DNA of 64,000 bases from assembly GCA_964006375.1 (NCBI GenBank), contig OZ023265.1, positions 114,941,358 through 115,005,357 on the forward strand. Reading direction: 5' to 3'. The notes below the pieces were generated by a model that was given only the letters and a program-made list of their open reading frames with translations, was not told the DNA's origin and did no database searches. Origin of the DNA: Tillus elongatus. Its lineage: Eukaryota; Arthropoda; Insecta; Coleoptera; Cleridae. The translations under genes and the position numbers were made by a program. This document shows positions 4,585 to 58,007 of the stretch, piece after piece; within the stretch, counting starts at the first letter, position 1; the number at the start of each line of letters is the position of its first letter.

Positions 4585-7500
4585 ATGTATAAAATAGAGG
4601 TAGTGACAAGCCTGGGCATTTATGACATAATCAATTCTTTTAGGGATTGTAAAAACGCATCTTATTTTACAGATAAATATCTTGTCAGCATGTACCGAGG
4701 CAAATACAAAGGTCTGTCAAGAGCTCATTTCATTCTTTCGCAGTGTAATAGAGGTAAGTGACAAGTAATGGTTAAACACTTGAGTTATTACACAATTCAC
4801 AATAATAATTACGGTTGGTAGTGATAGTAGTGAATCAGTGCGAATGTTATTGTTGATATACCTAGGTATAGGTAATATATTTTTTTCGACTACTTTAAAT
4901 TTAATTAATGGAATTTGTCAGTGCTTATATGTTCGTGGCTTATGCTTAAACTATAAAAATGATTCTGTTGTAATTTGAGAGCTTATCGGATACTTGAAAA
5001 GCATGTATGTTGGTGTAATAATAAATTTGTGTATAATATTAGTAATAATAAATAAATAATAGATAACATTAACTTCAAAAGATACTCATAGTAGCAATTA
5101 CTTTTTATTTTAGATGATAGTAATGCCGACAAAGAAAACCAACTGCACAATACTTTGGTCAATTCTGAAGTAGAAAAAAGGAACCAACCTCCTTTAGAGT
5201 TTCAAAATGTAGATGAAAGAAAATCAAAGACACCTCCTTTCACAAGTGTTAGTGGTGACGTTAGTGTAGATCCTCTTAATGAAGCCTTAAAACATAGTAT
5301 TTTGTTTGGAGAGGATCTGAATATTACGTCACATAATAATGCTTTGCTTGATACTTCTAACACAAACAAAAACTTTAGTATTCCACAAAATGATGACATA
5401 GACTCAGAGACAGACAATATTCGCTTTTGCCCACATGATATACAAGCAATCGAATATAATATACAGAATTCTTTTAATATAGAGCAAGATAATACGCAAC
5501 AGCGTGCCTGTAATCGTTCAGAGCTTCCAGAGAACAACATTTTTTTCCAGTCAGCGGAGGCTACACAAAATAATAATTGTGTTGGAATTTTAAACTTAGC
5601 AGACGCGGAGGTTGGTAACATGACGAGCAAGCCTGGAATTGCGTTATACTCAAATCCATGCAATGAAACTGTTAACGAGTTTGAAAATAAGGAGTTCTCG
5701 AGTGAGAAAGGAGACAAAATTGAAAATGAGTTTATTCAAGCAGGTGAACAGTTGCCAAGTGGAAAGGATGCTGGAAGTAGTACCGAGTTTATTGAGGATG
5801 AGGTGGTGTTCAGTGAAAGAGAAGAAGACGTGGTAGATGAAGAAACAGATTCATCAGATGAGGAGGATAGTTCAGAGAGTAGAAAAAGAAGAAAGGCAAG
5901 ACAGTTCCAACAAGGATTAAAACGTCAAAAAAACATCGATCTGCGAAATAGTGGAAAGGAATACAAAGGGCTTGTCCGTGTAGAAGATAAAAAGTATGTT
6001 GAGCAGACGAGACCTGCACGAGCAATGGGAGATCGATGCAGGCACACAGCCACTAAGTCAAGACCATCAAAGGTGAAGTCTAAAGTGAAAAATGACTCAA
6101 GCCGAACATTCCTTTGTGCCAATGTGAATGATGATCTACGTGAAACTAGGTTTAATGAATTTTGGTCACTGAAATCATGGGATGCCAAACGAGTCTATCT
6201 TTTAGGATTGGTTGATAAAAGGAAACCTTACAAAAGAAGGCCAAATTCAGAGGAATCCAAGAAAGATAATGCATTGGATTGCTATTTTCATGACAAAAAT
6301 GGGATGAAGATTCGAGTATGCAGGACATTTTTTCTAAATACGCTAGCATTAGGAAGGGATAGTTTCAACAGGTGGATGAGCGCAGGTATAACTATAAATA
6401 ATTCGGAAGAGGAAAACCCTAGTGCTAATACCTATAAAGTACCAAAGAGAATTAAAGAAATGCGACAGTCAGTGATGGACTGGTTAGAATTAATTCCTAA
6501 AGTTCCCAGCCATTACTGTAGAAGCAGTTCATCGAGAATTTACGTCGAATCAACTTTTCAGTCTATATCACACATGCATTCCATTTATGAACAGTGGTGC
6601 AAGGACAATAATAAGCGTGACATTGCATCAAGAGTTACGTTTTCAAAAATTATCGAAAATCAAAAAGTGTCAATTCACAAACCGAGAAAAGACCAATGCG
6701 ATATATGTTATCAGTACAATGTAGGTAATTTGAATGAAGAGGAATATAAAGAACATAGAAAAAAGAAAGAAGAAGCCAGAGAGATTAAAGCAAAAGAGAA
6801 AAGCGAAGTTAGCGATAAAAAACTTGTTGTAACGATGGACCTTCAAAGCGTATTACTGTGTCCTAAGCTTCTGGTTTCTAAAATATATTATGCCCAAAAG
6901 TTGCAAGTCCATGATATTACTATTTATTCATTGAATAACGGAGATGTTTTCCTTTATGTGTGGCATGAGGGGGAAGGGCATGTCACTTCCAATGAATTTG
7001 TATCCTGCTTATCGGACTTCGTTGAAAAAATGAGTGATCACTACGAGGAAATTGTTTTGATTTCGGATGGTTGTAACTATCAGAACCGAAATCGAGTTCT
7101 GTCGAGTCAATTGCTAAACCTGGCAGTTACCACACAAATATTAATTAAACAAGTGATACTTGAAAAGGGCCATACTATGATGGAGGCCGACAGTGTACAC
7201 TCCACCTTGGAAAATTTATTCAAACCGCCTATATGCAGCCCTGGTGATTATGTAAGCTGCATGAGAACAGCTCGTCCCAAAAAACCCTATAATGTGTATC
7301 AAATTGATCATACTTTTTTCAAAGATTATGAAAGTCAGCCAAACAATTTTACCTCAATTCGCCCTGGTCGAAAAGCTGGTGACCCGACAGTAATGGATAT
7401 AAGGGCTCTTCAATATCTACCTTCAGGTGTTATTCAGTACAAAATAAGGCATACAGAAGAATGGACTGATCTTCCACAAAGAAGACCAAATAAACCTCCC

Positions 7501-7629
7501 CTTTCTCTAAAGCCCCTATATATTGGTCCTCCAAAAATAAAGAGGGATAAATTCAACCACTTACAAGAACTTAAGCTGGCGTTACCTGCAGAATACCACC
7601 CGTTTTATGATTCTTTAGTTCACGAATAA
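4585..7629 (+). CDS. Sola-like transposase, spliced, about 894 residues
   Basis: Exon 4,585-4,753 (56 codons from ATG, MYKIEVVTSLGIYD) ends in AG|GTAAGT. The next exon starts after TTTTAG at 5,113 and runs to TAA at 7,627-7,629. The joint is in phase and makes GAT (Asp57). The main open frame is usually seen only from TTG 5,155, which is Leu71 here, not a start. An earlier non-coding exon may end near 4,407 (GAAG|GTAAGT) and splice to 4,578. Residue order: acidic stretch and basic KRRKARQ-like nuclear signal (around 280-320), CRTFF and SHYCR motifs, a CxxC pair at Cys585/Cys588 (DQCDICYQY), then the catalytic core: D632 (VVTMDLQSV), D708 (LISDGCNYQNRN), and E747 in GHTMMEADSVHSTLE, giving a DDE-like spacing of 76 and 39. 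It should cut and insert the element that encodes it. No stop or frameshift interrupts it. Family name is moderately sure; the DDE assignment is by motif. Confidence 0.88.
4754..5113 (+). other. Predicted intron of the Sola-like transposase
   Basis: Begins GTAAGT and ends with a pyrimidine-rich run and TTTTAG. Length 360 (a multiple of three), but stop codons inside it block read-through. Phase is 1 on both sides. Confidence 0.75.
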
Positions 7630-12827: not shown

Positions 12828-13170
12828 CTGTTTAGTGGTAATAACGTGTGCCTCTGAACCGAAGGATACTGTGTTCGATCCCAGGGTACTCCTTTCACTT
12901 TTTCAGTACATACTGTACAATTAACATCAACCGAGGTTGTGGCATTGTATTTGAACAGGTTGAATGCCTGCATGTGTCGCCCTTCGGAGGGGGCGTAAAG
13001 TTGTCGGTCCCGTGTCCATGTGATGTTGGGCACGTTAAAGATCCTTACCCTTCTTACAGAAAGGCCGCAGGGGTTTGGAAAAATTTCCAGGATAGTACGG
13101 TGAAACTGCTCTCTGGCGTCAGTGATTGGACATAGTTGCGGAAATAGACCGACGTGGAAGAAACAATTTA
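12828..13170 (+). mobile_element. tRNA-Gly-like SINE (copy 1), degraded head
   Basis: Head reads TTTAGTGGTAATAACGTGTG with box B TGTTCGATCCC. The body is shared with the other copies: CATCAACCGAGGTTGTGGCA, then CGCCCTTCGGAGGGGGCG, CACGTTAAAGATCC, and GGAAATAGACCGACG near the 3' end. Confidence 0.85.
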
Positions 13171-13620: not shown

Positions 13621-13960
13621 ACTGCCAGGATATAATTATTCCCCAAATGATTTCGGCTAAATTCTTAAAAAAATCTTTTAAATGAAAATCCTTTCACGAA
13701 AATTCGCCATTTTTTTAAAAAATTTGCCTTAGAAATGTTACACGAAATCTACATAAATATATTATTACGAAAATATTTAGAAAGTTTTTTACACGAAAAT
13801 TCTAAAACTATTTCGCGACGTGAATTCGCCAATTTTTTACCTAAAACTTATCAAACATTAATTATTAATTACTGAATATTTTTTGCACAAAAAGTTTCTG
13901 ATAAAATATATAAGATTCAAATTATCTAACCTGTAATTAAAATTGAACAAAAATGTTAAT

Positions 13961-13971
13961 CCTAAAAAGTT
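13961..13971 (+). repeat. Left target duplication of the hammerhead array
   Basis: CCTAAAAAGTT, repeated exactly at 14,824-14,834. Four more bases upstream match with one change (TAAT versus TAGT). Confidence 0.85.
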
Positions 13972-14225
13972 TGTAAGGCTAGATGCATTCTCGCAACAAT
14001 TTGTCCCTATATTGGGGTAGAAATGGGCCAGGGCTGACAATTTTCTAAATTGTTAGTTAGTTGTATACAGTCTCTATTTAACACTTTCTGTTATTTGGAG
14101 CTGGCGTGACAACATACTACTTGATTCCGCAACTAGGTGTGGCACGTCCACCACTCACTTAGTGATGAAAGGCTGGCTATACTATAGCCGTATTACTTTA
14201 GGTGTATTTTTGCTACAATTAGTAT

Positions 14226-14268
14226 CCCATAGTGAAGAGCTCTAATGAGAGCAAAACCGGTCTACGGT
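14226..14268 (+). ncRNA. Hammerhead ribozyme, predicted inactive
   Basis: Same layout as the copy at 14,584. Stem II GCTCT/AGAGC is intact and stem III ACCGGT is intact. Two core bases are changed: the first base of CUGANGA is G, and the G of GAAA is A. Both are normally essential. Confidence 0.85.
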
Positions 14269-14583
14269 TCCAATTGTTGCGATAATGCATCTAGCCTTAC
14301 ATACTTTGTCCCTATATTGGGGTCGAAATGGGCAAGGCTGACAATTTTCTAAATTGTTAGTTGTAATATTGGGGTCGAAATGGGCCAGGGCTGACAATTT
14401 TCTAAATTGTTAGTTGTATACAGTCTCTCTTTTTTTAACACGTTGTGTTATTTGGAGCTGGCGTGACAACATACTACTTGGTTCCGCAACTAGGTGGCGG
14501 CACGTCCACCACTCACTTAGTGATGAAAGGCTGGCTATACTATAGCCGTATTACTTTAGGTGTATTTTTGCTACAATTAATAT

Positions 14584-14626
14584 GCCGTACTGAAGAGCTC
14601 TAATGGGAGCGAAACCGGTCTACGGT
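14584..14626 (+). ncRNA. Type I hammerhead ribozyme with minimal stem III, intact core
   Basis: Stem I GCCGTA (14,584-14,589) pairs with TACGGT (14,621-14,626), six pairs with one G-U. Core CTGAAGA (14,590-14,596); stem II GCTCT AATG GGAGC (14,597-14,610); GAAA (14,611-14,614). Stem III is just ACCGGT, self-complementary, which cannot form a good hairpin alone but pairs between two copies. Predicted cleavage follows C14,620 of GGTC. All conserved core positions are met. Confidence 0.93.
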
Positions 14627-14823
14627 TCTAAATGTTGCGAGAATGCATCTAGCCTTACATACTTTGTCCCTATATTGGGGTAGAAATGGGCCAGGGCTGA
14701 CAATTTTCTAAATTGTTAGTTAGTTGTATACAGTCTCTATTTTTTAACACTTTGTGTTATTTGGAACTGGCGTGACAACTTGGTTCCGCAACTAGGTGGC
14801 GGCACGTCCACCACTCAGTTAGT

Positions 14824-14834
14824 CCTAAAAAGTT
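14824..14834 (+). repeat. Right target duplication of the hammerhead array
   Basis: CCTAAAAAGTT, exact copy of 13,961-13,971. Confidence 0.85.
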
Positions 14835-15059
14835 ATTAAGATTAACGTTTCACGGAAACCCGTTGAAGTAAAGAGAAATTTAGAAATACACTCATATTTT
14901 CATGTCACAAGCTGTCATAAATGAGGAGGTTGTTTAAATCTGTCACTTTGAAGTTTTATTTTACATTTGGAAGAACAGTTTATCCAATTAAGTATTTATA
15001 TGTTATGAAAATGGAAAAATAAATAATCTTATCAAATTAATGATTTCTTCCTTTTTTTT

Positions 15060-16625: not shown

Positions 16626-16646
16626 ACTTTCCATATTAAATGACTA

Positions 16647-16985
16647 GAGCCTCGGTGGTTCAGTGAAAAGGACGCGTGCCTCTGAACCGAAGGATACTGG
16701 GTCGATCCCAACGTTATACTTTCACTTTTCCAGTACATACTGTAACATTAACATCAACCGAGGCTGTGGCATTGTTTCTGATTAAGTTGAATGTCCGCAC
16801 GTTCCGCTCAACGGAGGGGCGTAGAGCCGTCGGTTTCGTGTCCATGCGATGTTGGACACGTTAAAGATCCCCACCCTCCTTACAGAAAGGCAGGGGTTCG
16901 TCAAATTTTCCTGGATAGTGAAGCGAACTGCTCCCTGGTGATTGGCCATGGTAGTGGAAATAGACCGATTAAAAAAACAAACACC
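16647..16985 (+). mobile_element. tRNA-Gly-like SINE (copy 2)
   Basis: Head GAGCCTCGGTGGTTCAGTGA resembles tRNA-Gly (box A TGGTTCAGTG), with box B GGGTCGATCCC. Body as in the other copies. Inserted directly after the tandem repeat. Confidence 0.88.
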
Positions 16986-17389
16986 CACACATTGAAAGAC
17001 CTATCACGTTCTTCTGTCGCATATTGAACTGCACTCAGCTGTTGCAATAAATAAGCTGCGTGATGAGCATTGTTAACACGCACATTCTCGGAAGTTGTAA
17101 TTAAATTTAGATTGTGAAAGGAAATGCATACTTACCTAATGTATAATATTTTATTTCCTATCGCCTTACTGAAACTGAATTGTGTTAGGAACAATAATGA
17201 TTTATTTTTTGTAGCATGCGTATTACGTTTGAACAAACTTATAAATGACGATCCCAAACGTCTCCTCTTTTTAGTGAATGTTCGTGGAAAAATTAGCATT
17301 TAGAAGATTTTTGCTTTTGAATGTTTAAATTTTTTTTCAGATCTCATATTCGGGGTTAGTCTAAATATTTATCTGTCTATATATACAGT

Positions 17390-21336: not shown

Positions 21337-21670
21337 ACCTCGGTGGTTCAGGGGTAGAACGTGTGCCTTTGAATCGAAGGGTACTGGGTTCAATCCCAGT
21401 ACTCCTTTCACTTTGTCAGTACAAACTGTAACATCAACGTCAACCGAGCTTCTGGCATTGTATTTGTGCAAGTTGAATGACTGCACCTTCCGCCCTTCGG
21501 AGGGGGCGTAAAGCCGTTGGTCCCGTGTCTATGCGATGTTGGGCACGTTAAAGATCCCTACCCTCCTTACAGAAAGGCAAATTTTCCAGGATAGTGAGGT
21601 GAAACTGCTCCCTGCCGTTGGTAATTGGCCATAGTCGAGTAAATAGGCCGACGTTAAAGAAACAAAACAC
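21337..21670 (+). mobile_element. tRNA-Gly-like SINE (copy 3), best preserved
   Basis: Head ACCTCGGTGGTTCAGGGGTA carries box A, and GGGTTCAATCCCAG is a perfect box B. Body: CGCCCTTCGGAGGGGGCGTA, CACGTTAAAGATCCCTACCC, and ATAGGCCGACGTTAAAGAAA at the 3' end. Useful as the family reference. Confidence 0.92.
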
Positions 21671-21694
21671 AAACACACACATCTACAGATATAT

Positions 21695-35020: not shown

Positions 35021-36100
35021 CCCTACTTGATAAACCTCTTCCGCAGATGCAAAATAAAAATGTTTTTAGTGAGATAAGTAATTTGTTTATTAAATGCTTG
35101 TCTCTCAGCTTTTTGCTATATTAGCCACAACTTTTCAGTTATTTGCTACGTCGACCATTATCCGTAATAATATTTGCAAGGTATACGTTGGCCGTTCGCA
35201 GTCTGCATCCTCTGTAATCATTTTTTTATTTCTCATATTAGCGGTATGCCATCGACGCACCTTATTGAGTAAAAAACGTTGTCTATTTATTTTGATTGCT
35301 CTAGTCTATACATTCGGCCTAAGTATTGTATTTTTTTGTGAATAAATTGAACAAATGTGGCGACAATGGACATTTTTGCGGTATCAACATCTTTCCTTAT
35401 TTTAGCTTCAATTTTATATACGTTAATATCTAATATTGTACTGCAATTTTTGCATATATCGAGAATGATATGCCTGTCCCACCAATCCAATCCCCACTAG
35501 CACTTAAGTGATGGCAACTGAGATCGTAACTAAAAATATGTAGTTATAATCGCCACTAATTCTACGATTCTGTGGTGAAAATAACTTTGTATTAGCAGTG
35601 ACAATTACGTAAAATTTACCACTTATAACTACTTTAGCGGTACTCAACTTTTTAGTTACCTTCAAGGAATTAGGAACATCGTCATTACTCATAGAACGCC
35701 TCCTAAGTTCCGGTAACTTGAAGGTAACAAACAACAGTAGCAGAAAATATCATATGTTACTGAGATGCTTACCGCGACGTTGCCGGCCTCTTCATATTGC
35801 ATCTAATAGTTGTGAAACTTTGGTAATATATTCTGATGGCAGTCACATTTCCGCTACCTGAAGAAGTGAATGTTACTAATTGTGTCCACCATAAAGTAGT
35901 AGTAGCCTTTCAAATTCATCATAAAATATTTTTCATCCTACAGTCCCACTGATAGGCGATGATTGTTTCATCACAACAGTATTCGATGCGATGTTGTCTC
36001 TAGTAGAGTGAGTAATGTGTGTCGTCCAATAATAATGTCATGATGTTAATAAAAACAAGCCACTTGACCAACAAACAAAATTTTACAGACATTTTACAAT
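35021..36100. other. Intergenic, no feature recognised
   Basis: Possibly the interior of a broken LINE. No motif I can name. Confidence 0.35.
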
Positions 36101-36300
36101 ATTACTACTTGGTTCCGCAACGAGGTGGCGGCACGTGCCTCGTGCCTTATGTCTCACTTAGTGTTGGAAGGCTGGCTACCATAGACGTATTAATTTATAG
36201 GTGTATTTTCGCTGCGTATGCCGTACTGACGAGCTCTAATTAGAGCGAAACCGGTCTACTGTTCTAATTGTGGTGAGAATGCATCTAACCTTAAATGCTA
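36101..36300 (+). mobile_element. Retrozyme-like monomer fragment
   Basis: About 200 bases homologous to the array unit at 14 kb: CTACTTGGTTCCGCAACGAG, GGCGGCACGT, TAGGTGTATTTTCGCTG, then the hammerhead and GAGAATGCATCTAACCTT. A single copy, no tandem partner. Confidence 0.85.
36220..36262 (+). ncRNA. Type I hammerhead ribozyme with minimal stem III
   Basis: Stem I GCCGTA (36,220-36,225) with TACTGT (36,257-36,262), one mismatch. Core CTGACGA (36,226-36,232); stem II GCTCT AATT AGAGC, five perfect pairs (36,233-36,246); GAAA (36,247-36,250); stem III ACCGGT; predicted cleavage after C36,256. Core complete; stem I slightly weakened. Confidence 0.92.
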
Positions 36301-36889
36301 CAATATGTTAAAGGAAAGAAGAGGATGACAATGCATTTTATTGTAAAGATCAAGAACAAAATAATATGGTTTCTCAGATTTCACCATTGCAACAAATTAG
36401 AATATGGTATCAGTGTCACAAAATAAGCCACAGCGCGCTTACACATCTATTGAATGTAATCAAATTAAATAGTGTTAATTTACCAAACGATAGTAGAGCT
36501 TGATTAAAAACTGCAAGACCTGTTGATGTCGTTAGAATAAGAATTGAGGTGCCTTAAACAATGATATTTAAAACTTTTTGAACACAGCATTTTGTCGGTT
36601 TGAGAGATCCATAACACTACCACTGATTTTTAATGTAAGTGGTACAAAGCACAAAACAAGACGCATGTAAACAAAAATAACTGGTACCTAAAATTTTGTT
36701 AGGTTAAAATGGCAAGCAGAGCAGAGAATTTCAAAAACATCTTCTGTTTTCAGAAATAATAGAGTTGCAAGGAGAACTGTAAATAAAAAACCATTTGATA
36801 GATTAGGCCGATTACTGCAAAATAACTAGACACTATTGATTCATAGTCCCACTTGGTAGATTTTAATGGGAGTAACCTAAAAGTTCCGT

Positions 36890-46300: not shown

Positions 46301-46330
46301 GCTGGTTAAAGATGTAAAGCTTTTTTTGTA

Positions 46331-46670
46331 CTTTAACGTCACTCTATTTCCGTGACTATAGCCAATCATCGACGTCACGGAGCAGTTTCACCCCACTCTC
46401 CTGGAAATGTTGTCAAACCCCTAACTTTCTGTAAGTAGGGTAGGAATTTTAAACGTGCTCAACATAGCATGGACACGGGACCGACGGGTTTACGCCCCCT
46501 CCAAAGAACGGATAGTGCAGACATTCATCTTGCTCGCATACAATGCCAGAACCTCGGTTGATGTTAATTTTTTAGTATGTACTGAAAAAGTGAAAGGCGA
46601 ACCGTGAGAATTGAATCCAATACCCTTCGGTTCAGAGGCAGACGTTCTTACCACTGGACCACCGAGGCTC
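46331..46670 (-). mobile_element. tRNA-Gly-like SINE (copy 4)
   Basis: On the minus strand: GAGCCTCGGTGGTCCAGTGG then TAAGAACGTCTGCCTC, box B region GGATTCAATTCTC (slightly degraded), and body through CACGTTTAAAATTCC to GGAAATAGAGTGACGTTAAA. Confidence 0.88.
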
Positions 46671-46865
46671 TGAGATGTAAAGTTTGACATGTATGGCTAG
46701 AATACGGCTGCTTTATTTAATATTCAGTATAGAAAAAGCCAGATTATCAGCTGTATAGGCAGTATAAAAAATTTTGTAATTATAATTGCTGGATTTAAAT
46801 TACGACTCAAATGTAAACTTGTCAGAAAGCAACAAATTTATAGGCTATTCTATCTTATATCATAA

Positions 46866-47070
46866 TATGCCACATATATAGCATAGACCGGTTTTGTTCT
46901 AATGAAGACTCATCACTATAATATACCTACGCTCCATCAAGTCGGCATATACATCATACTGAAGCCCTGGAGTGATGGTGTCCAGCAAGGAAGGTAACAT
47001 AACGGCCGTCGTGGTATTATCCAGAGGAGTAGTTGTTTTGGGTCGCTAGTTTCCCCCACAGCTTAATTAT
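46866..47070 (-). mobile_element. Diverged relative of the hammerhead array
   Basis: On the minus strand: GTGATGA, stem II GTCTT..AAGAAC-like (GTCTTCATTAGAAC), AAAAC, CGGTC, TATG. This is the hammerhead layout with the first core base G and GAAA as AAAA, the same two changes as in the inactive copy at 14,226. It shares downstream sequence with 25,925-26,310. Confidence 0.65.
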
Positions 47071-48062: not shown

Positions 48063-48075
48063 GAGGTTTTTAGTG

Positions 48076-48330
48076 TTTTAGTGCCTACTGTCAATTTAAC
48101 GTCAACCAAAGTTGTGGCATTATATTTGAGTAAGTTCAATGTCTACGTTTCGCCGTTTGTAAAAGGCGTATATTCGTCGGTCTTGTGTAACATGCAATGT
48201 TGAGCACGTTTAATATCCCCAGCCTTCTTACAAAAAAGGCAAAAGTTCGGCAAAGCTTCCTGGAAACAAATCCTTGGCGTCAGTGATTGACCATAGTTGC
48301 GGAAATAGACCGATGTTGAAAAAAAAACAA
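48076..48330 (+). mobile_element. tRNA-Gly-like SINE (copy 5), headless
   Basis: Starts in the body (AACGTCAACCAAAGTTGTGG) and runs to GGAAATAGACCGATGTTGAA. The tRNA part is missing, replaced by the CA/CG tract. Confidence 0.75.
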
Positions 48331-56310: not shown

Positions 56311-57510
56311 GATACCTTTTATATGTCCAACATCAAATATCAAGCTGGACCAAGCGCTTAACGACTCCTTAAGTGAACGCACTTTATAAGTATTCAGCTT
56401 GTCCCGATACAATGCCAAATTATTCAAGTCTTGATACTTTTTGAAAGTGATTAGCAGCTTGCGATAATATGCAAACCGAGTACCTGCCCACAGCATCCTC
56501 TTTATACCAGCTCAGCTACTTAAACCACAGGCGCAGTTGCAATACTGTTTAGATAACAATCAAATTAAAAAATTCGTTATATGAGCATTATACCATTGTT
56601 TTAGTTTGCAATAAAACCACAAAAAGTGGACACCACGTGAGGTGAGATATTTGGGCAAGAGAAATAACGGGTTTCCTGTCTTGCTATTCAAGACCTTCTG
56701 AACGTATGCAAACTGCATAAGTTTTGTTACCCCTTAGATTATGTTAGACGCCCTTACGTATCTAAAATCGAGCTTTGTGGGTTTGTGGTTTTTGTGATAC
56801 CCACTTTAAATGCTTTTAAGTAAATACCTATTATAAATTAATTTTGTATTTCATGAGTATTGCTAAACTAATATTATGATTATTGTCTCTTTTATGCTCT
56901 GTTGTATGGATATTTATAAATTGTATATTGAGCAATATTAATTTTTAATTTTAAAACGAGTTAATGCTAACAATATACATAAGAAATAGTATACTAGCTG
57001 TTCTGCTGCTAAAAATATATGTTCCTACTTTCGGATTCAGGAGCGCCCTTCACAAAATGTATTCGATTCCTGAAAAGTTTTAACTTCAGCGGAACCTTGA
57101 CTTACATATTGACAAGTTTGCAATATTTTCAGATGTTTCGCATTTTCAGTTCAAATAAATTTAGGCAGCGCCATGCCATATTTTATTTGCACCTACATAT
57201 GCATGATATTATAAGACTGATTAATTTGTTGTTTTGTAAGGTAAATTATTCAGAATTTATTAGATAAGGGAGGCATTTAGAGCTGTAAGAAACTGACTGA
57301 TTAAAAGTGAATATACTAGACACAGCCATACCAATAATTTCGTACTAGTTTTTCCTCTCACGCATTTTCAAGCATGATAAGACGCATCTAAAACAAAAGT
57401 TAAAACAAGGCAATGTAAATAGTGAGAAATGTTTGCGTGCTTCAAGCGGTACTTATTATTGAAAACTGGAAGCGCTAGAAAGACCAAATATAAAAATGGG
57501 GGATATTTTT
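56311..57510. other. Intergenic, no feature recognised
   Basis: No supported gene or repeat. Confidence 0.4.
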
Positions 57511-57706
57511 GTTTAGTTTCTTTAACGTCGTTCTATTTTAGCGATTATGGCCAATCATCGAAGTTCTGTAGCAGTTTAATCTGAAAATCCTGGATATCAT
57601 GCCGTATCCCGTCCTTTCTGTAAAGAGTATAGGAATATTTAACGTGCCCAGCATCGCATGGCATGGCACACGGGCCCAACCGCTTAACGCGCCCTCCAAA
57701 AAGCGG
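57511..57706 (-). mobile_element. tRNA-Gly-like SINE 3' part (copy 7)
   Basis: Reversed body: TTTCTTTAACGTCGTTCTAT, GGCCAATCATCGAAG, TTTAACGTGCCCAGCATCGC. The head is missing. Confidence 0.75.
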
Positions 57707-58007
57707 ATCTCCAATTACGGTGAATAGGAAAACGTCAAATGAGAAAAATCGATAGGGATTCCCATTGATATTAAACAGAAACTAAACATTTTGCCTCAAA
57801 TGGTTTTCTTTAAAAATGTTTTAAAAGCCTAAAAATAAATATTTGGCAATTTTGAAATCTATTTAGGAACTTTGATTACCGTTTTTCAAAATAATAAATA
57901 TAGCGTACTGTTTCTAAATCCATGTCGAAAATCCTATTATATAAATAATTAGCAAGACATATCTGTCAGTTGTTCTAACTATAATTGTATTGTATATTAT
58001 TTTATGT

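Follow-up and report, generated by a model that had tools for sequence, protein, structure and literature searches.

The 852-bp insertion at 13972-14823 of the window (the whole 64-kb stretch of Tillus elongatus DNA analysed here, G000:C4:114941358-115005357), termed locus 1, is most probably a non-autonomous metazoan retrozyme that was inserted by the machinery of Penelope-like elements (PLEs). Judged from the sequence, its RNA would have been copied onto both nicked strands of the target from two dedicated start sites, here called H and T, and we assign this reading a probability of roughly 0.8. The two parts of locus 1 are joined head to head; the arm with the H end is very short, and the T end forms the 3′ terminus of the locus.

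Architecture of locus 1

Locus 1 is assembled from units of 305 nt, numbered from u1, the first base 3′ of the hammerhead cleavage site. It has the following features.

13961-13971, no strand: left target-site duplication, CCTAAAAAGTT (12 exact bases counting the preceding T; 16 of 17 over 13955-13971)
13972-14001, minus strand: short inverted arm, 30 nt, reverse complement of u10-u39, with the H site at its outer end
14002-14262, plus strand: unit A without its 5′ part (u45-u305)
14226-14268, plus strand: hammerhead of unit A, core broken (C3 to G, G12 to A), cleavage-site strand intact
14263-14620, plus strand: unit B, 358 nt, the sole unit to run in full from one cleavage site to the next
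14314-14418, plus strand: 53-bp tandem duplication private to unit B
14584-14626, plus strand: intact type I hammerhead of unit B, with a 6-bp stem I, a stem II with AAUG loop and a palindromic stem III, ACCGGU
14621-14823, plus strand: unit C without its 3′ part (u1-u206), ending at the T site (u206)
14824-14834, no strand: right target-site duplication, CCTAAAAAGTT

Read from left to right, the insertion (GC 0.415; window GC 0.343) consists of inverted u39-u10, u45-u305 of unit A, u1-u305 of unit B with the 53-bp duplication, and u1-u206 of unit C. The head-to-tail spacings of 357/358 and 306 bear out the array that a preliminary description of this DNA had reported as two full units and one partial unit; however, only unit B is complete, unit A being truncated at its 5′ end and unit C at its 3′ end. 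The same description had interpreted the locus as a retrozyme concatemer that moved as a unit rather than expanding in place. The retrozyme identity and the movement as a block are supported, but the plain concatemer is replaced by a head-to-head insertion with a very short arm, and internal changes such as the 53-bp repeat may have come later. The exact 11-bp flanking repeats were correctly recognized: CCTAAAAAGTT has just two copies across the 64-kb window, both flanking locus 1, and 8 of 4000 random flank pairs reach an exact repeat of 11 bp. No ORF of at least 90 aa was found in 13961-14834. The tandem unit of 305 nt (358 nt in unit B) lies within the 170-400 nt range of metazoan non-LTR retrozymes.

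The empty target of locus 1 appears by eye to be quasi-palindromic, with GTTAATC at 13955-13961 and GATTAAC at 14841-14847, and both nicks lie directly 5′ of ATT. This motif is preferred by the anole PLE, and it was considered as a rule for the start of reverse transcription (RT); the nicks of locus 1 fit such a rule but those of the second copy, by eye, do not, and the rule was rejected.

Other copies and repeats in the window

The preliminary description did not contain the 30-nt inverted piece at 13972-14001, a second copy at 36103-36298 or a relic at 46945-46850. The two additional copies have the following features.

36095-36102, no strand: left target-site duplication of the second copy, TACAATAT
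36103-36298, plus strand: second retrozyme insertion, 196 bp, 79% identical and more diverged; 5′ end at about u157, 3′ end at about u42 (H site)
36220-36262, plus strand: hammerhead of the second copy; its core is intact, with C at N7, and stem I has one mismatch
36299-36306, no strand: right target-site duplication of the second copy, TACAATAT
46850-46945, minus strand: decayed hammerhead-bearing relic of the same or a related family (nhmmer score 12.0 bits, reached by 0 of 40 shuffled windows)

The second copy is a one-way, H-ended insertion, and 20 of 4000 random flank pairs reach the 8 bp of its duplication. Position N7 of the hammerhead, a C in this copy, may vary. The relic and the hammerhead of unit A (14226-14268) have the same letters at positions 3 (G) and 12 (A), which may reflect a shared dead sublineage or a coincidence, G12 lying within a CpG.

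The window also contains repeats and open frames of other kinds. A dispersed repeat of up to ~330 bp occupies six places (12830-13166, 16646-16991, 21338-21677, 46324-46671, 48068-48327 and 57506-57708); its head is tRNA-like by eye, giving it a SINE-like appearance, and ARAGORN returned no tRNA in the window. The 824-aa open frame at 5155-7629 has no Pfam match, close relatives at 69% identity and weaker named relatives in two insects, and it probably encodes a mobile-element protein. The ORF at 287-724 encodes a transposase-like protein whose named relatives occur in Aromia moschata and a few other species, which we take to be beetles.

Hammerhead integrity and predicted cleavage

The unit B hammerhead at 14584-14626 has every core position and the palindromic stem III, as originally described, and cleavage is expected after C14620. 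It is the sole match to a strict descriptor in the 64 kb, and none of 60 Markov sequences matched. A relaxed descriptor matched the same site and 36226 in the window, as well as 1 of the 60 Markov sequences. Rfam HH9 matches both units with E values of 0.0072 and 0.032 in a 1401-base scan, far under the gathering score, and an Rfam scan of the window returned nothing at or above gathering score.

The preliminary claim of a hammerhead in each full unit fails for unit A, whose copy at 14226-14268 carries G for C3, A for G12 and broken stem I pairs. Units A and B differ at 5 of 43 hammerhead nucleotides versus 4 of 127 flanking nucleotides (Fisher P 0.047). Selective constraint on the hammerhead could not be shown from the comparison of unit B with the second copy (4 changes in 43 nt). 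Across 70 units found by a motif search of 40 genomic loci, positions 3 and 12 are both intact in 64, and the G3/A12 pair of changes, which unit A itself fits, occurs in 1; these figures leave out more decayed units, since most of the other core letters are fixed in the motif.

Can unit B be released from its array? The hammerhead fold is not the lowest one for single 43-mers (-11.6 versus -14.8 kcal/mol for B; -5.1 versus -9.3 for the second copy). Two B copies together form a double-hammerhead fold of -32.1 kcal/mol with 28 pairs, against a lowest fold of -33.4 for the B-B pair and -14.8 for B alone. When the core of B is placed on the intact cleavage-site strand of A, 17 pairs form at -20.9, and the lowest A-B fold is a different one, at -28.8. 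The circular RNA of about 309-358 nt proposed in the preliminary description is doubtful in cis at locus 1, in its 358-nt form, because the upstream ribozyme, that of unit A, is dead. On these predicted folds, the intact B hammerhead could cut the upstream site solely in a dimeric form, and for the A-B pair another fold is lower in energy. Excision of the 358-nt unit would therefore need the dimeric mode, and its occurrence is uncertain.

Ends and orientation of genomic insertions

The host assembly (1.72 Gb, 30 contigs) yielded 7308 first-look candidates for the retrozyme, the best 40 of which were scored (192 matches). Fifty retrozyme stretches were examined, and 40 non-redundant loci were analysed after the removal of those that overlap L044-L050 or each other (L002-L005, L009, L013, L016, L018, L022 and L028). 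These 40 loci are the best-scoring of the 7308 for a query that ends at T, in one genome, rather than a random sample.

Head-to-head organization, with the left arm on the minus strand and the right arm on the plus strand, is found at 29 of the 40 loci; 11 are one-way and none is tail-to-tail. Of the 69 outward ends, 62 fall in two windows, set after inspection of the data, that cover 33 of the 305 unit positions. The H ends (26 of 69) lie at u33-46, about 39-41 nt after the cleavage site, and read ..CTAGCCTTACA up to the junction. The T ends (36 of 69) lie at u198-216, about 205-207 nt after the cleavage site, and read ..CCACCACTCACTTAGTG; the T site includes the letters CACTTAGTG. The inner ends are scattered across the whole unit. 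Among the 29 head-to-head loci, the two outer ends form an H/T pair in 23, an H/H pair in none and a T/T pair in none, and 6 have an unclassed end (L033, L035, L037, L046, L047 and L049). Were each side to take H or T at even odds and regardless of the other side, 23 H/T pairs out of 23 would have a probability of ~1e-7, a value to be read with the post hoc choice of windows. The second arm is shorter than 50 nt in 4 of the 29 (L001, L011, L026 and L035, the last a mere 18-nt match).

Target duplications, scored as exact matches only, accompany many of these insertions. A flank repeat of at least 8 bp is present at 18 of 29 head-to-head loci versus 8 of 812 mismatched flank pairs, and one of at least 11 bp at 14 of 29 versus 0 of 812; the other 11 loci have no exact repeat of at least 8 bp. 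The genome search suggested in the preliminary description thus recovered dispersed copies with distinct duplications. The AT content of 24 duplications is 67.7%, and that of the window is ~66%.

Some loci carry longer or interrupted arrays. L044 and L045 contain runs of several head-to-tail units, and L044:3541-6171 comprises 2.6 kb of direct units with no inverted arm and a T end. Copies identified by eye as LINE-like are nested in retrozymes at L037:1920-3001, L041:1-1000 and L047:937-2211; their three nearby but differing positions (~u211-u237) may indicate a target preference. The ends at these nested copies were not counted as retrozyme ends, and L047, read by eye across its nested piece, is an H/T locus. 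An apparent continuation of L037, L041 and L047 through a T-run into a PLE ORF was discarded, since by visual inspection this sequence is the poly(A) end, reversed, of the nested LINE-like copies.

Resident Penelope-like elements

PLEs are abundant in the host. The GIY-YIG domain (PF01541) gave 14221 first-look candidates, of which 150 were scored, and all those listed lie over the cut-off. An ORF combining reverse transcriptase and GIY-YIG is absent from the retrozyme and present in separate resident PLEs, as at L062, where RVT_1 and GIY-YIG share a single open frame of 478 aa. A minimal hammerhead, CTGATGA..GAAACGATCGTC/AGG, can be read by eye in the aligned PLE ends; its palindromic stem III is common to the retrozyme and PLE hammerheads. 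The hammerhead descriptor found none over 12 PLE loci because the PLE stem I has just ~3 pairs.

PLE insertions have two kinds of end. The tail-less end, GTGTACTTA, lies ~50 nt after the cleavage site, and the tail end lies 36 nt beyond it, ~86 nt after the cleavage site. Twenty PLE stretches were taken from 45 listed matches of a tail-bearing query, some of them picked for an adjacent inverted partner, so the frequencies of tails and of head-to-head copies are not to be read from the 20. Both ends are in view in 8 of these stretches. Every one of the 8 is head-to-head and combines a tailed end with a tail-less one, and exact repeats of 6-14 bp flank 7 of them. In 14 of the 20 stretches the last letters of the tail are TTCACTTA(A/G)TG (TTCACTTAATG in 11, TTCACTTAGTG in 3), and in 6 they are different.

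The T end of the retrozyme shares these terminal letters. It reads CTCACTTAGTG in many copies, matching the PLE tail end, and its last ten letters, TCACTTAGTG, are fully matched by four PLE loci (L060, L063, L065 and L073). The T end of unit C in the window reads TCAGTTAGT / CTCAGTTAGT, departing from CTCACTTAGTG. The H end of the retrozyme and the tail-less PLE end have little beyond CTTA in common, and the distance between the two sites is 167 nt in the retrozyme versus 36 nt in the PLE. A blastn comparison of the retrozyme unit with 12 PLE loci gave similarity in none but L053, which holds a 75% identical retrozyme fragment of its own (L053:622-768, u38-u182) near a PLE GIY-YIG match.

Template of the two arms

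Units of one insertion stand apart from those of other insertions in one part of the unit but hardly in another. In u215-u35, the mean distance is 0.0355 within an insertion versus 0.0557 between insertions, and 0 of 500 permutations are as low; unit A of locus 1 has the largest within-arm mean in this region (0.071). In u45-u198, the corresponding values are 0.0345 and 0.0367, with 53 of 500 permutations as low, and units in opposite arms of one insertion (mean 0.0467, 29 pairs) are less alike than those of different insertions.

The geometry of the junctions is mixed. The T arm stops no more than 10 nt downstream of the H start in 5 of the 23 H/T insertions, including locus 1 (binomial P 0.001), as if both cDNAs had been drawn from a single RNA; the others have no fixed relation. 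In either order, the arms come within 10 nt in 6 of the 23, and the remainder are spread. At locus 1, the private 53-bp duplication and the dead hammerhead agree with a heterogeneous multimer, or with later mutation, just as readily as with a circular template.

Discussion

How could an element that encodes no protein of at least 90 aa be inserted with two fixed and different ends? We propose that the tandem array is transcribed and that type I hammerheads with palindromic stem III would cut the transcript, best as dimers, to give multimers, monomers and possibly circles. Retrozyme insertions follow the inverted plan of PLEs, and we therefore infer that a PLE protein, with its RT and GIY-YIG endonuclease, writes them in trans; it would bind the RNA and nick both target strands, mostly 8-14 bp apart. 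The nicked strands would prime RT internally, and the ends seen in the insertions suggest that one does so at H and the other at T. The two cDNAs would meet at a variable point and leave a head-to-head inverted insertion, and where one arm is very short or missing, as at locus 1, the copy would resemble a plain tandem array.

This proposal agrees in several respects with what is known of PLEs. According to the available text of PMC11167929, purified PLE protein cuts and extends both target strands and uses two adjacent internal start sites, which in the anole PLE lie 111-118 nt into the ORF; the cleavage site is at 26, placing them 85-92 nt away. For the anole PLE, that text reports the lack of a strand difference in start site and an AT-rich choice of target, whereas the retrozyme insertions each use both sites, one apiece, and the AT content of their duplications is close to that of the window. 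The accessible part of PMC3846280 describes PLEs with inverted terminal repeats (pLTRs), a tail on one end and duplications of 8, 9 and 10 bp, as well as families whose pLTRs are all direct and insertions that lack a duplication. As portrayed in these two sources, Penelope/Poseidon elements thus share with the host retrozyme a partial tandem with an inverted 5′ copy, a tail at one end, two internal start sites downstream of a minimal hammerhead and short target duplications. The retrozyme differs in lacking the RT/endonuclease ORF and in having ends 167 nt apart rather than 30-40.

The host element also has the traits of a metazoan retrozyme, namely a type I hammerhead, a GC content of 0.415, a non-coding sequence and dispersed copies with duplications >4 bp. 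Metazoan non-LTR retrozymes, as presented by Cervera and de la Pena in the available text of PMC7229834 (2020), likewise have type I hammerheads, units of 170-400 nt, tandem copies, GC below 50%, target duplications >4 bp and a short helix III, some acting as dimers; head-to-head insertions with two fixed outer ends, or an analysis of insertion ends, do not appear in that text. The hammerhead satellites of newt and cave cricket likewise form tandem repeats for which a dimeric form is described, and the available portions of PMC6155905 and PMC2837043 treat them as satellite DNA without mention of insertion ends. Searches of phage, viral and prokaryote collections returned no match.

Mobilization by a LINE in trans, with the inverted arms arising by the usual twin priming on a single RNA, as for human L1, is an unlikely alternative, even though LINE-type sequences are present (an RVT_1 ORF at 2179-2514 and, by eye, the nested copies in L037, L041 and L047) and the close T-arm/H-start geometry of 5 of the 23 H/T insertions is what it would produce. 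At locus 1 alone, where the inverted piece ends at u39 and the sense sequence starts at u43-45, simple twin priming looked attractive; given the 23 H/T loci, it was dropped as a general rule and kept for a subset. Seventeen of the 23 junctions fit neither order within 10 nt, and starts at two fixed sites, one of each in 23 of 23, are unexpected from priming at chance microhomologies. Moreover, the T end matches the PLE tail end, and in human cells 5′ inversions are, by the accessible account in PMC4245944, confined to L1 inserts with one other exception.

It is quite improbable that locus 1 is instead a solo or rearranged pLTR of a PLE. The end structure, the tail letters and the palindromic stem III are common to both; however, the units follow each other head to tail at a spacing of ~305 nt, locus 1 contains no ORF of at least 90 aa, multi-unit runs exist at L044 and L045, and overall sequence similarity to the PLE stretches is absent. 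Least probable of all, and very much so, is a satellite origin, by amplification either in place or by way of excised circular DNA, the flanking repeats having arisen by chance. The long direct array of L044, which has no inverted arm, would suit such an origin, but the target duplications exceed the level of mismatched flanks, the ends are fixed and inverted second arms occur at 29 of 40 loci.

A broader relationship can be tentatively suggested, at somewhat less than even odds: animal retrozymes may be to PLEs what SINEs are to LINEs. They would carry the two RT start sites of a PLE, one per target strand, and would be copied by two inward-moving PLE RTs, perhaps on the same small circular RNA. 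Such a circle would explain the multi-unit arms, together with their variable length and random meeting point. This suggestion is weakened because units in the two arms of one insertion (u45-u198) are no more alike than those of different insertions.

Animal retrozymes and the proposal that PLEs mobilize them are already known. PLEs are named a strong candidate mobilizer in the available text of PMC7229834, and the same suggestion is made in the accessible parts of PMC7761336 and PMC11722881. A search of titles and abstract openings, a coverage that most subscription papers fall outside, found no inverted retrozyme insertions with PLE-type ends. In the literature, so far as these partial texts extend, the mobilizing enzyme of animal retrozymes was left open, and the PLE proposal rested on co-occurrence, tandem copies and shared hammerheads. 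Structural support for that link comes here from the insertion ends. As a signature of mechanism, these ends can be looked for wherever a genome carries retrozymes, and they specify exact start sites for a test with purified PLE protein. For PLEs themselves, the presence of one tailed and one tail-less end per copy suggests a separate RNA start site for each target strand.
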